In this document: one piece after another, positions 2,003 through 38,307 of the stretch
Layout of the letters: the number at the start of each line of letters is the position of its first letter
Numbering within the stretch: position 1 is the first letter of the stretch
From: a virus
Direction: 5' to 3' (one strand)
Virus record (IMG/VR): IMGVR_UViG_3300017987_000153
Location: 1 to 43,901 of that record
Length of the DNA stretch: 43,901 bases
Program-made: the position numbers and the translations under genes
Notes under the pieces: model-generated
What the model was told of the DNA's origin: nothing
Databases searched by the model: none
The model's input: only the letters and a program-made list of their open reading frames with translations

Positions 2003-2669
2003 TTAAATATTTTTCGAAATTTTTTGGCCTAAAAAGCGTTTCCGGATTATAATATTTCGGATTTTCAATAAAATATTGATCTTTTAATTTTAATTGTAAA
2101 ACCTTCTCACAATCATCAATTGTAAAATTTTCATCTAATCTGGCTTTTATATTTTTTAAATTCGTATCGTTTACCCTGAAATTTTTACCACTCAATTTAT
2201 TTAAAATCCCTAAAACTTTTTCAGCCTCAGCTTTATTTTTAATAGTTTCTTTACTATTTTTTTTATATATAGGTGGGATTATCTTTTTTGATAACGCTCC
2301 ATTATCTTTTTTGATAACGGTCATTATCTTTTTTGATAACGTTATCTTTTTTGATAACGGTTTCCATGTTTTGTATTTTTTATTAATTCCATAAGTTGTA
2401 TTAATTCTGTTATCTTTTTTGATAACGGTTATTACATTTTTATCTTTTAATGATTTTAATGCTCTTGAAACAGCTTGTTTATTAATTCCAGTGCCTTCAA
2501 CAAAATCAGATAACGGAATTTCATCTTCTTTTTTCCCCCATCCGTATGTTTTTCTTATGATAAAAAAAAGACACTGCATCTGCTCTCCAGGAATACGATA
2601 TTTTGATAGAGCTTCAAGTATTTCATTGGCTATTTTTGTATAACCGTTTTCAAGTTGAGGTGAATCCAT
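1923..2669 (-). CDS. replication initiator, lambda O-like N-terminus with Phg_2220_C-type C-terminus
   Basis: A 248-residue protein. Residues 1-85 form a winged-helix domain like phage replication protein O (NGYTKIANEILEALSKYRI, then GTGINKQAVSRALKSLKDKNVI). Residues about 155-225 match the conserved C-terminal module of many phage replisome organisers (VLGILNKLSGKNFR, ARLDENFTIDDCEKV, KYYNPETLFRPKNFEKYLN). The lysine-rich middle, residues 86-140, is encoded by the iterons listed separately. Expected roles are binding the origin iterons inside its own gene and recruiting helicase through the DnaC-like loader. The gene follows the HNH gene directly. I do not assign a symbol because homology to lambda O is only at domain level. 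Confidence 0.85.
   Translation of the reverse strand: MDSPQLENGYTKIANEILEALSKYRIPGEQMQCLFFIIRKTYGWGKKEDEIPLSDFVEGTGINKQAVSRALKSLKDKNVITVIKKDNRINTTYGINKKYKTWKPLSKKITLSKKIMTVIKKDNGALSKKIIPPIYKKNSKETIKNKAEAEKVLGILNKLSGKNFRVNDTNLKNIKARLDENFTIDDCEKVLQLKLKDQYFIENPKYYNPETLFRPKNFEKYLNEKPKNNQSPTGTKYANIKTRVVNVD
2279..2426. repeat. iterons; probable origin of replication inside the initiator gene
   Basis: Five exact copies of the 17-mer TTATCTTTTTTGATAAC, at 2279-2295, 2302-2318, 2324-2340, 2342-2358 and 2410-2426. Each contains the inverted repeat TTATC-N6-GATAA. Spacings are 23, 22, 18 and 68 bases, the first three near two helical turns. Copies 1, 3 and 4 (2279, 2324, 2342) read LSKKI in the initiator frame while copies 2 and 5 (2302, 2410) read VIKKDN, so the repeat is conserved as DNA and not as protein. 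The flanking bases from about 2030 to 2280 are extremely AT-rich and could be the unwinding region. The arrangement matches the lambda-type ori within gene O. Confidence 0.8.
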
Positions 2670-11175: not shown

Positions 11176-12231
11176 ATGCAGACATTTAGATTTGTTTTCT
11201 GGCATTTGACCGGTGGCTTTGCCCTTGCAGCATCGTGGGTGTGGGGTGCGGATCATGAGATTGTTTCGTTCTGCGAAATTGAACCGTTTGCCCAAAAAGT
11301 CTTAAAAAAACATTGGCCTGATGTGCCGTGTATACCGGATATCAGAGACATAAAAGGAACCGATTATGCAGGAACAATTGACCTTATTTCCGGCGGGTTC
11401 CCGTGCCAACCGTACAGTGTTGCCGGGAAGCGAAAAGGCGCGGAAGATGACCGTGCGCTCTGGCCTGAAATGTTGCGCGTTATTAAAGAAGCAAAGCCCA
11501 ATTGGATTATTGGCGAGAACGTTGCTGGGATCGAAAGTGTTTTCCAGTGGGACGGTTTTTCTGAATTGGAAGGCAAGGAATATCCTACAAAAAAGGCGGC
11601 AAAAGCTGACTTTAAAGGCATTTCAGAACGAACAGGGGAAGGAATGTTATGGGTGGTTTTGGGCAACCTTGAAAAACTCGGATACGAGGTCCAACCAGTT
11701 ATTATTCCAGCTTGCGCCGTCAACGCCCCGCACAGGCGGGATAGAGTCTGGATTGTGGCGAACTCCAAACGGCCAAGAACCGGGGATAAATCCAGAGCGG
11801 TTGCAATGCAAGGACGGATCACCGCCGAAACCGGGCCAGCGGCTTTACGACAAGGAAACGGGGAGACTTTGCCAGATAGGGTTAACACAACAGGCCAAGA
11901 TGTGGCCCACCCCATCAGCAAGCATGATGACATCTCAGGACATGGAGCAAGCGAAGTATGCCGGGAACGATCCGAAAAGGCCAAAATACAAGGATGCTCT
12001 TTGGCCGACGATAACCGCAACCGATGCGATAAAAGGCGGAAAAGTATCTCCACGACCGGGGGCAATGGGACTTTCAGAGAAAACGGGTGGCTCCCTGAAC
12101 CCGCAGTGGGTCGAGTGGCTAATGGGGTATCCGGTCGGGTGGACAGACTTAAAGGACTCGGAAACGCCATAGTTCCGCAAGTGGTGGTTCCGATCATGCA
12201 AGCGATTAAGGAAATTAACGAAACATCCTAA
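11162..12231 (+). pseudogene. C5-cytosine DNA methyltransferase, broken by a 5-base insertion in motif I
   Basis: The natural start is the ATG at 11162 (MPKSKCRHLDLFSGI), giving the AdoMet motif I up to FSGI. There TGA at 11207 stops the frame. The sequence resumes as GGFALAASWVWG in another frame from 11212, so five bases (TGACC, 11207-11211) interrupt the expected LDLFSGIGGFALAA. Downstream the open frame has motif IV GGFPCQPYSVAGKRKG with the catalytic Cys, motif VI ENVAG, motif VIII HRRDRVWIVA and motif X GLGNAIVPQ. Without the insertion it would be 354 residues. As it stands the protein lacks part of the AdoMet site and is probably inactive. The locus also carries a second conserved-looking frame. 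Confidence 0.75.
11366..12172 (+). CDS. alternative-frame ORF overlapping the methyltransferase; C-terminal half looks conserved
   Basis: A 268-codon open frame, +1 relative to the main methyltransferase frame. Its first 130 residues look like an out-of-frame shadow. From about 11756 it reads LWRTPNGQEPGINPERLQCK, RLYDKETGRLCQIGLTQQ, MWPTPSASMM, LWPTITATD and ends GGSLNPQWVEWLMGYPVGWT. This is the region I know from the target-recognition/C-terminal part of many phage cytosine methyltransferases. The same bases in the main frame encode RVDRLKGLGNAIVPQ. Either frame use switches here (frameshift product) or both proteins exist. No good separate start is visible. Confidence 0.4.
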   Translation: MQEQLTLFPAGSRANRTVLPGSEKARKMTVRSGLKCCALLKKQSPIGLLARTLLGSKVFSSGTVFLNWKARNILQKRRQKLTLKAFQNEQGKECYGWFWATLKNSDTRSNQLLFQLAPSTPRTGGIESGLWRTPNGQEPGINPERLQCKDGSPPKPGQRLYDKETGRLCQIGLTQQAKMWPTPSASMMTSQDMEQAKYAGNDPKRPKYKDALWPTITATDAIKGGKVSPRPGAMGLSEKTGGSLNPQWVEWLMGYPVGWTDLKDSETP

Positions 12232-21499: not shown

Positions 21500-23023
21500 T
21501 TATGCCGCTTCTTGTATTTCCATGTGGTGGTATTCTTCCGAATTGATCCATGTAATCCGCGATGCTGTATATGTGTCCTCTCCGTCATCTACCGTATCAC
21601 CGGGCCTGAGAAAAATATGCGGTTTCACAAGCCTTGCCGTTATTAATCCGCCAACTGTCCGTTTATAGTTAAGCCAGCCAAGATCAATAGTTACTGTTTT
21701 TTGATAGCTCTGCTTTGCCGCTGCCTGTGCTGTGGTTTCGTATCCAGAAACGGTTATACTTTTATTTACCGACCCTTCGTCAACGTTTACCGTTAATAGT
21801 GGGACTGTAACTATCGGTTCTGATTGCAAAACATTACCAGTCACCCGATCACAATAAGCCATAGAGAAAACAAGATTGCCGCCGGATCTGTCAGAAATCT
21901 GGTCAGCGTAATCAACCCCGGGAATCGTGGCACCAAAACAAGTCGGATTGTCCGAATACATTCGAATTTCAAATTGTTTAATCGGCATAGTGATATTTGG
22001 CGAGCCGGTCAGCGACAAAAAAAACTTAATATAATCTTTTGTGATTCGGGTTGTTGAAATCGATGGAACGGCAAAGGTGCCGCCTGCCGAAATATTAGAA
22101 ACGAGCGCATGAACAGACCCGGTTATTGCGGCAAAAGTGCCACCAGCCGCAATATCCGGAATGAGCGCATGGATAGATCCGGTTATTGCAGAAAAAGTGC
22201 CACCTGCCGCAATATCCGGAATCGTTAAAAACCATCCCTTGTAAACATTCGGAACAGAGAATGCCCCGCCAGCCGAAATATCCGGAATCGGCGTATTGAT
22301 AGACCCGGTTATTGCAGAAAAAGTGCCACCTGCCGCAATATCCGGAATCGTTACTCCATAGGCAAAATTGGTATAGGCAAGACCTGATCCACTATTAAAC
22401 AAATCAGATACCTGCGACGGAGTTAATACCTCTGACCAAATACCGACTTCATCAATTAATCCACTAAATTTGTTTGAAGCATAAACAGAGCCTCCATCGG
22501 TCAACGCGCCAATACAGGGTTTAATCGTTGAAGTATAAAGACTGCCGATGGTATATTGATCTAAAATCGTTGGAGTCTCTTCCGATCCATTTACGTATAA
22601 TTTGAGATCATTGCTTTCAAACGTAAAGCCAACATGATACCAAGTGCTAACACTTATAGAAGTTGCGCTTTGATATCTTTTGAGTTGGGTATTTCCTCCG
22701 TCGTTTGAGAGAAGAGCTTCAAGCTTGCCTGACGAGTTTAAATACAGCAACCATGATCTTTTACTTGAGATATCATAGTAAGATAAAATATACCTATTTG
22801 TCACATCAGACGCATTAATCCATGCAAAGGCTGAAACCGCAGAATTATTAAAGTCGGCGTGAGCTGGAACTAAAATGGAATCGCTTGTAAAATTACCACA
22901 ATTATTGATCTTTCCAGCAGTCCCCCACGCAACGCCAACTGCCGATCCGTCGTGAGATTGGTGAAAATCAGTCGCGTCTGAATCCAAACCATAATACGAT
23001 ATTAACGAATTTAAAAAAGACAT
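21500..23023 (-). CDS. LamG-domain tail/adhesin protein with short repeats
   Basis: A 507-residue protein. Residues 1-215 are a concanavalin/LamG-type jelly roll (LISYYGLDSDATDFHQSHDG, FAWINASDVTNRYILSYYD, TWYHVGFTFESNDLKLYVNG, FSGLIDEVGIWSEVLTP), a fold that binds carbohydrate. Then five or six copies of IPDIAAGGTFSAITGSI-type units (about 20 residues each). The C-terminal domain (LSLTGSPNITMPIKQFEIRM) is a phage-tail-type module also seen in 'non-contractile tail sheath/tip' proteins. Probably a receptor-binding tail component. Confidence 0.6.
   Translation of the reverse strand: MSFLNSLISYYGLDSDATDFHQSHDGSAVGVAWGTAGKINNCGNFTSDSILVPAHADFNNSAVSAFAWINASDVTNRYILSYYDISSKRSWLLYLNSSGKLEALLSNDGGNTQLKRYQSATSISVSTWYHVGFTFESNDLKLYVNGSEETPTILDQYTIGSLYTSTIKPCIGALTDGGSVYASNKFSGLIDEVGIWSEVLTPSQVSDLFNSGSGLAYTNFAYGVTIPDIAAGGTFSAITGSINTPIPDISAGGAFSVPNVYKGWFLTIPDIAAGGTFSAITGSIHALIPDIAAGGTFAAITGSVHALVSNISAGGTFAVPSISTTRITKDYIKFFLSLTGSPNITMPIKQFEIRMYSDNPTCFGATIPGVDYADQISDRSGGNLVFSMAYCDRVTGNVLQSEPIVTVPLLTVNVDEGSVNKSITVSGYETTAQAAAKQSYQKTVTIDLGWLNYKRTVGGLITARLVKPHIFLRPGDTVDDGEDTYTASRITWINSEEYHHMEIQEAA
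22063..22350 (-). repeat. tandem coding repeat of about 60 bases
   Basis: The stretch CCGCAATATCCGGAAT-type sequence recurs five or six times with units of about 60 bases (for example AAAGTGCCACC.GCCGCAATA at 22134, 22194 and 22320). The encoded unit is (I/V)(P/S)(D/N)I(A/S)AGG(T/A)F(S/A). Copies differ mainly at the ends of the unit, and one copy is extended (VYKGWFL). Probable recombination-prone region. Confidence 0.65.
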
Positions 23024-38265: not shown

Positions 38266-38307
38266 GGTATTTCAGGTCAGAATGGGGGTATTTCAGGTCA
38301 GAATGGG
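38266..38307. promoter_or_regulatory. two tandem perfect 21-base repeats, probable activator binding sites
   Basis: The 21-base unit starting GGTATTTCAGGTCAG and ending AATGGG occurs at 38266-38286 and again immediately at 38287-38307, with the G-run shared in phase. A period of 21 bases places the copies on the same face of the helix. They lie between the divergent capsid operon (minus) and the 38438 promoter (plus), where a late-gene activator would bind. The activator is unknown. Confidence 0.65.

Follow-up and report, generated by a model that had tools for sequence, protein, structure and literature searches.

The locus

The window was an IMG/VR virus record of 43,901 bases, read at full length; genes of the large terminase, the portal and the tape-measure protein are present in it. 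Features of the region studied are collected in Table 1. In the 248-aa product of the O-like gene, residues 4–101 match the Phage_rep_O winged helix (Pfam PF04492, 3.4e-25; 88.8 bits against a curated cut-off of 28.7, which places the protein in this family) and residues 151–222 match Phg_2220_C (PF09524, 3.5e-16); PHROG matches were to replication initiation, O-like and DnaD-like loader proteins. The gene of a DnaC-like protein comes after the O gene and overlaps its end; a helicase loader thus adjoins the initiator gene, as in an origin of the lambda type.

Table 1: Features of the O-like gene region (window numbering; strand given where assigned).
Feature	Coordinates	Strand	Basis
O-like replication initiator gene, 248 aa	1923–2669	−	Pfam and PHROG matches
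DnaC-like helicase loader gene	1379–2002	−	phrog_50 DnaC-like helicase loader, 3.4e-44
Codons of predicted recognition helix, residues 64–76	2442–2480	−	AlphaFold2, local pLDDT about 97–98
A66 codon, residue covarying with arm base −5	2472–2474	−	covariation
Putative iteron 1, GTTATC-T6-GATAAC, codes V82–N87 (VIKKDN), wing of winged helix	2409–2426		sequence match, translation, AlphaFold2 model
Putative iteron 2, GTTATC-T6-GATAAC, codes LSKKI(T)	2341–2358		sequence match, translation
Putative iteron 3, ATTATC-T6-GATAAC, codes LSKKI	2323–2340		sequence match, translation
Putative iteron 4, ATTATC-T6-GATAAC, codes VIKKDN	2301–2318		sequence match, translation
Putative iteron 5, ATTATC-T6-GATAAC, codes LSKKI	2278–2295		sequence match, translation
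Candidate duplex-unwinding region, 80 bp past the array in gene direction, 76% AT	2198–2277		AT content

Other features of the window: an 88-nt direct repeat in three copies (22080–22353; 80–92% similarity to the reference copy) in the gene region of a virion structural protein; a perfect 21-bp tandem duplication, GGTATTTCAGGTCAGAATGGG, at 38266–38307; a DNA methyltransferase gene at 11176–12231 (+ strand), with an open frame of 277 aa on the opposite strand at 11364–12197.

The five repeats

Exact copies of TTATCTTTTTTGATAAC (n = 5) start on the + strand at 2279, 2302, 2324, 2342 and 2410; start-to-start distances are 23, 22, 18 and 68, in gene order 68, 18, 22 and 23. When up to three mismatches to TTATCTTTTTTGATAAC were allowed, 7 matches were found in the window against 0.53 expected, a number reached by no shuffle; a chance origin of the cluster is excluded. 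No other cluster of the TTATC-T6-GATAAC type was found elsewhere within the 43,901-base window. The original prediction of five exact copies inside an O-like gene, three of their spacings being 18–23 bases, was borne out by these copies (spacings 18, 22 and 23) and by the Phage_rep_O match. The repeat had been described as a 17-base palindrome; it is a palindromic repeat, and the length has to be corrected: the strict palindrome is 18 bp (GTTATC-N6-GATAAC) at 2341 and 2409 and 16 bp in the other three copies, and the T6 core is not symmetric in itself.

In gene order the repeats code for VIKKDN, LSKKI, LSKKI, VIKKDN and LSKKI. The predicted frame independence therefore holds for two frames (VIKKDN twice, LSKKI three times) and not for all three, the third carrying the stop codon TAA. 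The array lies ~240–390 bp into the O gene, away from its promoter; several dyad repeats in the middle of an O-family gene, a mark of lambda-type origins, are thus present in the window. The copy at 2409–2426 lies outside the linker and codes for the wing in the AlphaFold2 model; a binding site would here constrain the wing of its expected reader.

The five repeats are very probably initiator-binding iterons of a phage replication origin that lies, by the logic of lambda, inside the gene of its own initiator. DNA-only scans, an excess of palindromic codons and persistent geometry in relatives, given below, support the expectation that selection acts on the DNA.

Evidence for selection on the DNA

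When 2.9 million viral contigs were scanned by DNA alone for two copies of GTTATC-N6-GATAAC within 30 nt, 16 loci came up; an O-like gene is present at 14. A relaxed form of the paired motif hit 115 loci, against 46 for a control palindrome with the same base composition in scrambled order. Of the ORFs (100 aa or longer) that cover the pair, 40/92 matched Phage_rep_O for the relaxed motif and 0/19 for the scrambled control. The scrambled palindrome, TATTC-N6-GAATA, was itself located partly within Cro-, YdaS- and S24-repressor-type genes (L121–L166) and may be an operator family in its own right.

A search with the whole 248-aa protein gave three relatives only. Eighty O genes were obtained by homology to the N-terminal 70 residues only, the repeat region being left out. 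When every 5-mer arm was ranked with all spacers of 0–12, the commonest repeated palindrome in these genes was TTATC-N6-GATAA (17 genes), followed by TTACC-N6-GGTAA (11 genes); below these came mainly the two words in shifted register, or other arms with an identical spacer.

For peptides selected at the protein level, in the genes chosen by homology and in the held-out ones, palindromic coding was compared with the synonymous expectation from the codon use of the gene concerned: VIxxDN, 11 observed vs 0.9 expected; LSxxI, 5 vs 0.3; VTxxGN, 11 vs 0.8; LPxxV, 35 vs 2.9. Palindromic codon choice is thus ~12- to 17-fold above expectation. Codon bias within repeats selected by their DNA pattern is circular, and the peptide-selected test was used in its place.

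These values bear on the reading of the repeats as a protein-level feature, in which slippage would have multiplied a linker rich in lysine (LSKKIT/VIKKDN). In its favour are the identity of the copies and the basic character of the linker; similarity of the 6-nt core is also higher among copies within a gene than between genes (0.85 vs 0.61), which fits local copying. Against it stand the two frames with their differing peptides, the excess of palindromic codons, and spacings of 18, 22, 23 and 68, which are no multiples of one unit; we regard slippage as very improbable. The likeness of cores within a gene suggests local copying or gene conversion between iterons.

In bacterial genomes matches to the strict pattern were mostly outside O genes, many of them being pairs that flank promoter-like DNA beside small HTH genes. 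In several Bacteroidales loci (L171, L187, L193, L194, L195 and similar ones) GTTATC-N6-GATAAC pairs ~46 bp apart flank promoter-like DNA beside small genes (~72 aa), and four of the neighbour genes scanned encode Cro/C1-type HTH proteins. These pairs are probably operators of the adjoining regulators, independent of the phage O genes.

Such palindromes can accordingly be operators, and the winged helix of the O-like protein is MarR-like in sequence and fold. Both points would suit an array of operators, with the O protein or a different winged-helix regulator of the phage repressing or timing its own operon from them and no origin at the locus. The array is, however, well inside the gene and off its promoter, and five copies beside a mildly AT-enriched stretch resemble the origins that are annotated, for lambda and P22, within homologues of this gene; we consider operators alone unlikely. 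Autoregulation could exist alongside the origin role.

Geometry of the array in related O genes

Of 104 non-identical O genes, 93 have a repeated dyad (6-nt arm, 6-bp spacer) that scores above every one of 10 codon shuffles, and the array was clear (score at least 6) in 81 of the 104; by spacer the best dyad was even in 107 of 110 O genes. Arm words include GTTATC, GTTACC, GTTGCC, GTTCCC, GTCATC and AGTGTC, or, in shorter form between phages, TTATC, TTACC, TTGCC and TCATC. The commonest successive spacings in relatives are 22, 68, 23, 24, 21 and 18. Arrays with different arm words share the runs 68-18, 18-22 and 22-23, which together make up the 68-18-22-23 of the window. Reading frames of the copies across 81 relatives were counted as 218, 162 and 6; the coding strand is rich in A at the core, and the first copy often comes where the winged-helix coding region ends.

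According to the original prediction the repeats should persist in relatives. Dyad geometry and copy positions do persist, and arms and coded residues change together (VIxxDN/LSxxI with TTATC, VTxxGN/LPxxV with TTACC), which is the opposite of conserved residues with a lost palindrome. The helicase-loader neighbour was searched for in relatives by single queries, of low sensitivity.

Palindromes could alternatively act as mRNA hairpins that tune translation or decay of the O–DnaC message. The 176-nt mRNA segment does fold better than shuffles (z = −5.98); this is to be expected, however, of any set of palindromes. Hairpins predict neither a dyad and copy spacing fixed over different arm words nor covariation of an arm base with a residue of the recognition helix (below), and we give them very little credence.

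Recognition helix and arm base −5

Across 68 non-redundant genes no helix–arm association was stronger than the one linking arm base −5 to residue 66, in window numbering (z = 14.3); in the AlphaFold2 model A66 is near the start of the recognition helix. Base T goes with Asn, Ala or Thr at this residue, C with His, Arg or Lys. Fixed beforehand, the rule gave the right base for 21 of 22 held-out genes, all of them new and <80% identical to the training genes (Fisher p = 5e-5); it holds as well (p = 1e-4) when only those training genes are taken that had been chosen by homology. Each gene was also paired with its closest relative of the other base, closeness being judged outside the helix; of the switched pairs 34 agreed with the rule, none went against it and 7 carried no information. 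L244 (Asn, T) and L270 (His, C), 86% identical, are an example of such a switch. The rule fails in L061 and L247, where His goes with T, in L217, where Ala goes with C, and in a small number of cases with Thr or Lys. A tree-aware test on the 53 remaining columns was underpowered: independent pairs on supported branches numbered just 3, and they were concordant nearly every time. Recognition helix and array are less than ~200 bp apart, so that linked inheritance or cassette exchange could move both jointly. Another rule, helix K/R with arm base −10, reached z = 9.1 in training and only 15/26 in held-out genes, and is not claimed.

The helix–arm covariation points strongly to O proteins that each read the repeats of the gene encoding them; together with the 21/22 held-out predictions it is strong indirect evidence for binding of the O protein to the repeats.

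DnaA boxes have the consensus TTATNCACA. Since TTATC shares letters with it and is like half a box, the repeats might bind a host factor such as DnaA. The repeat sequence TTATCTTTT is nevertheless far from TTATNCACA, DnaA-box-like sites in the window are at chance level (46 seen, 47 expected) with no TTATNCACA cluster at the repeats, and the arm word tracks the phage protein's own helix; binding of a host factor is the least probable of the alternatives and highly improbable.

We lean towards a specificity code of the O family, in which arm base −5 would be set by a residue early in the recognition helix, A66 in the window (T for Asn, Ala or Thr; C for His, Arg or Lys; possibly G for Val or Ser), initiator and origin changing together in one gene. 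The window would then belong to a widespread even-dyad class, with one iteron coding for its reader's wing, and origin position and specificity would be predictable from the protein sequence alone. Among the open-licence papers searched, which cover lambda and Shiga-phage origin work, none was found on the GTTATC-N6-GATAAC motif or on the helix code; this is not proof of novelty.

AT-rich flank and proposed mechanism

The 80 bp past the array are 76% AT against 71–73% elsewhere in the O gene; of the "extremely AT-rich" flank that had been predicted, the AT excess stands, as a mild one, and "extremely" does not. In 64 of 79 relatives the matching interval has a higher AT content than the remainder of the gene. 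GC skew in the window gave no origin signal at the locus.

By analogy with lambda, we infer how the protein would bind, and in what stoichiometry, and how unwinding, loading of the helicase and activity as an origin would follow. Each palindrome would take a dimer of the O-like protein, with a recognition helix on either arm; the two arms are separated by one helical turn. The filled four-copy cluster and the wing copy would form a nucleoprotein complex that opens the adjoining AT-rich DNA just downstream, and the DnaC-like protein of the next gene would then deliver the host helicase.

An origin inside its initiator gene is best known from lambdoid phages. The same logic would span many uncultivated phages in which the sites vary, the geometry is fixed and change tracks one initiator residue. 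If true, the code lets phage origins and compatibility groups be predicted from sequence; an old question, how one stretch of DNA evolves both as coding sequence and as binding site, is made testable. Lambda O had no sequence match among solved structures in the PDB copy searched, so that the code also predicts contacts for a structure still to come.

Comparison with known systems

MarR/SlyA-type winged-helix regulators are the nearest solved folds and sequence profiles to the DNA-binding domain of the O-like protein, the similarity being weak (best sequence E = 0.008, Foldseek E = 0.002). They have palindromic operators; unlike the window protein, they are transcription regulators without a Phg_2220_C domain.

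Among phages, Pseudoalteromonas phage vB_Pun_Y3 fits an even dyad, as does the window; so does Caldibacillus CBP1, which yet breaks the base rule. Providencia and Yersinia phages fit an odd dyad (N7); phiEt88 and Klebsiella GZ7 approximately fit the odd dyad and 20-24-23 spacing of lambda and P22. The O-like gene of Brevibacillus phage Jimmer1 (L443) carries an internal array of another type. Steps of 20 bp occur several times in this array, its best description is GTAACT with a 1-bp spacer, and it can be assigned neither to the even-dyad class nor to that of lambda.

P22 gene 18 is an O-like gene with an annotated internal origin (spacing 20-24-23, best array TTTACC-N5); unlike the window, its dyad is odd and the next gene is that of a DnaB-like helicase, where the window has a DnaC-like loader. 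In Shiga-phage O genes with six iterons, extra iterons add O residues while serving as DNA sites (PMC7466680); compared by description, their repeats are, as proposed for the window, both coding and DNA site, and differ in being of the lambda type and not even dyads.

In lambda, binding of O to the iterons and unwinding of an AT-rich region are established (PMC7466680). The initiator family is homologous, the iterons lie mid-gene just past the winged-helix coding region, and their core is rich in A on the coding strand, as in the window; they are beside an AT-rich stretch, where the window has its mildly AT-enriched flank; four iterons are annotated in the middle of O (spacing 20-24-23 vs 18-22-23 in the window). 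In contrast, lambda has arms TCCCTC in an odd dyad with a 5-bp spacer (window: GTTATC, even, 6 bp), no wing copy was seen in it (window: a fifth copy 68 bp upstream, coding for the wing), and its next gene is P (window: DnaC-like). The lambda iteron sequence and odd dyad, which define the specificity class of lambda and not its logic, are absent from the window. The original prediction of lambda logic with an unrelated sequence keeps the layout; unrelatedness applies to letters and dyad spacing, and not to protein family and array layout. The best reading of the sequence is that the window holds a putative origin of the known lambda-type kind in a variant form, of the even-dyad class and with an extra copy in the wing.
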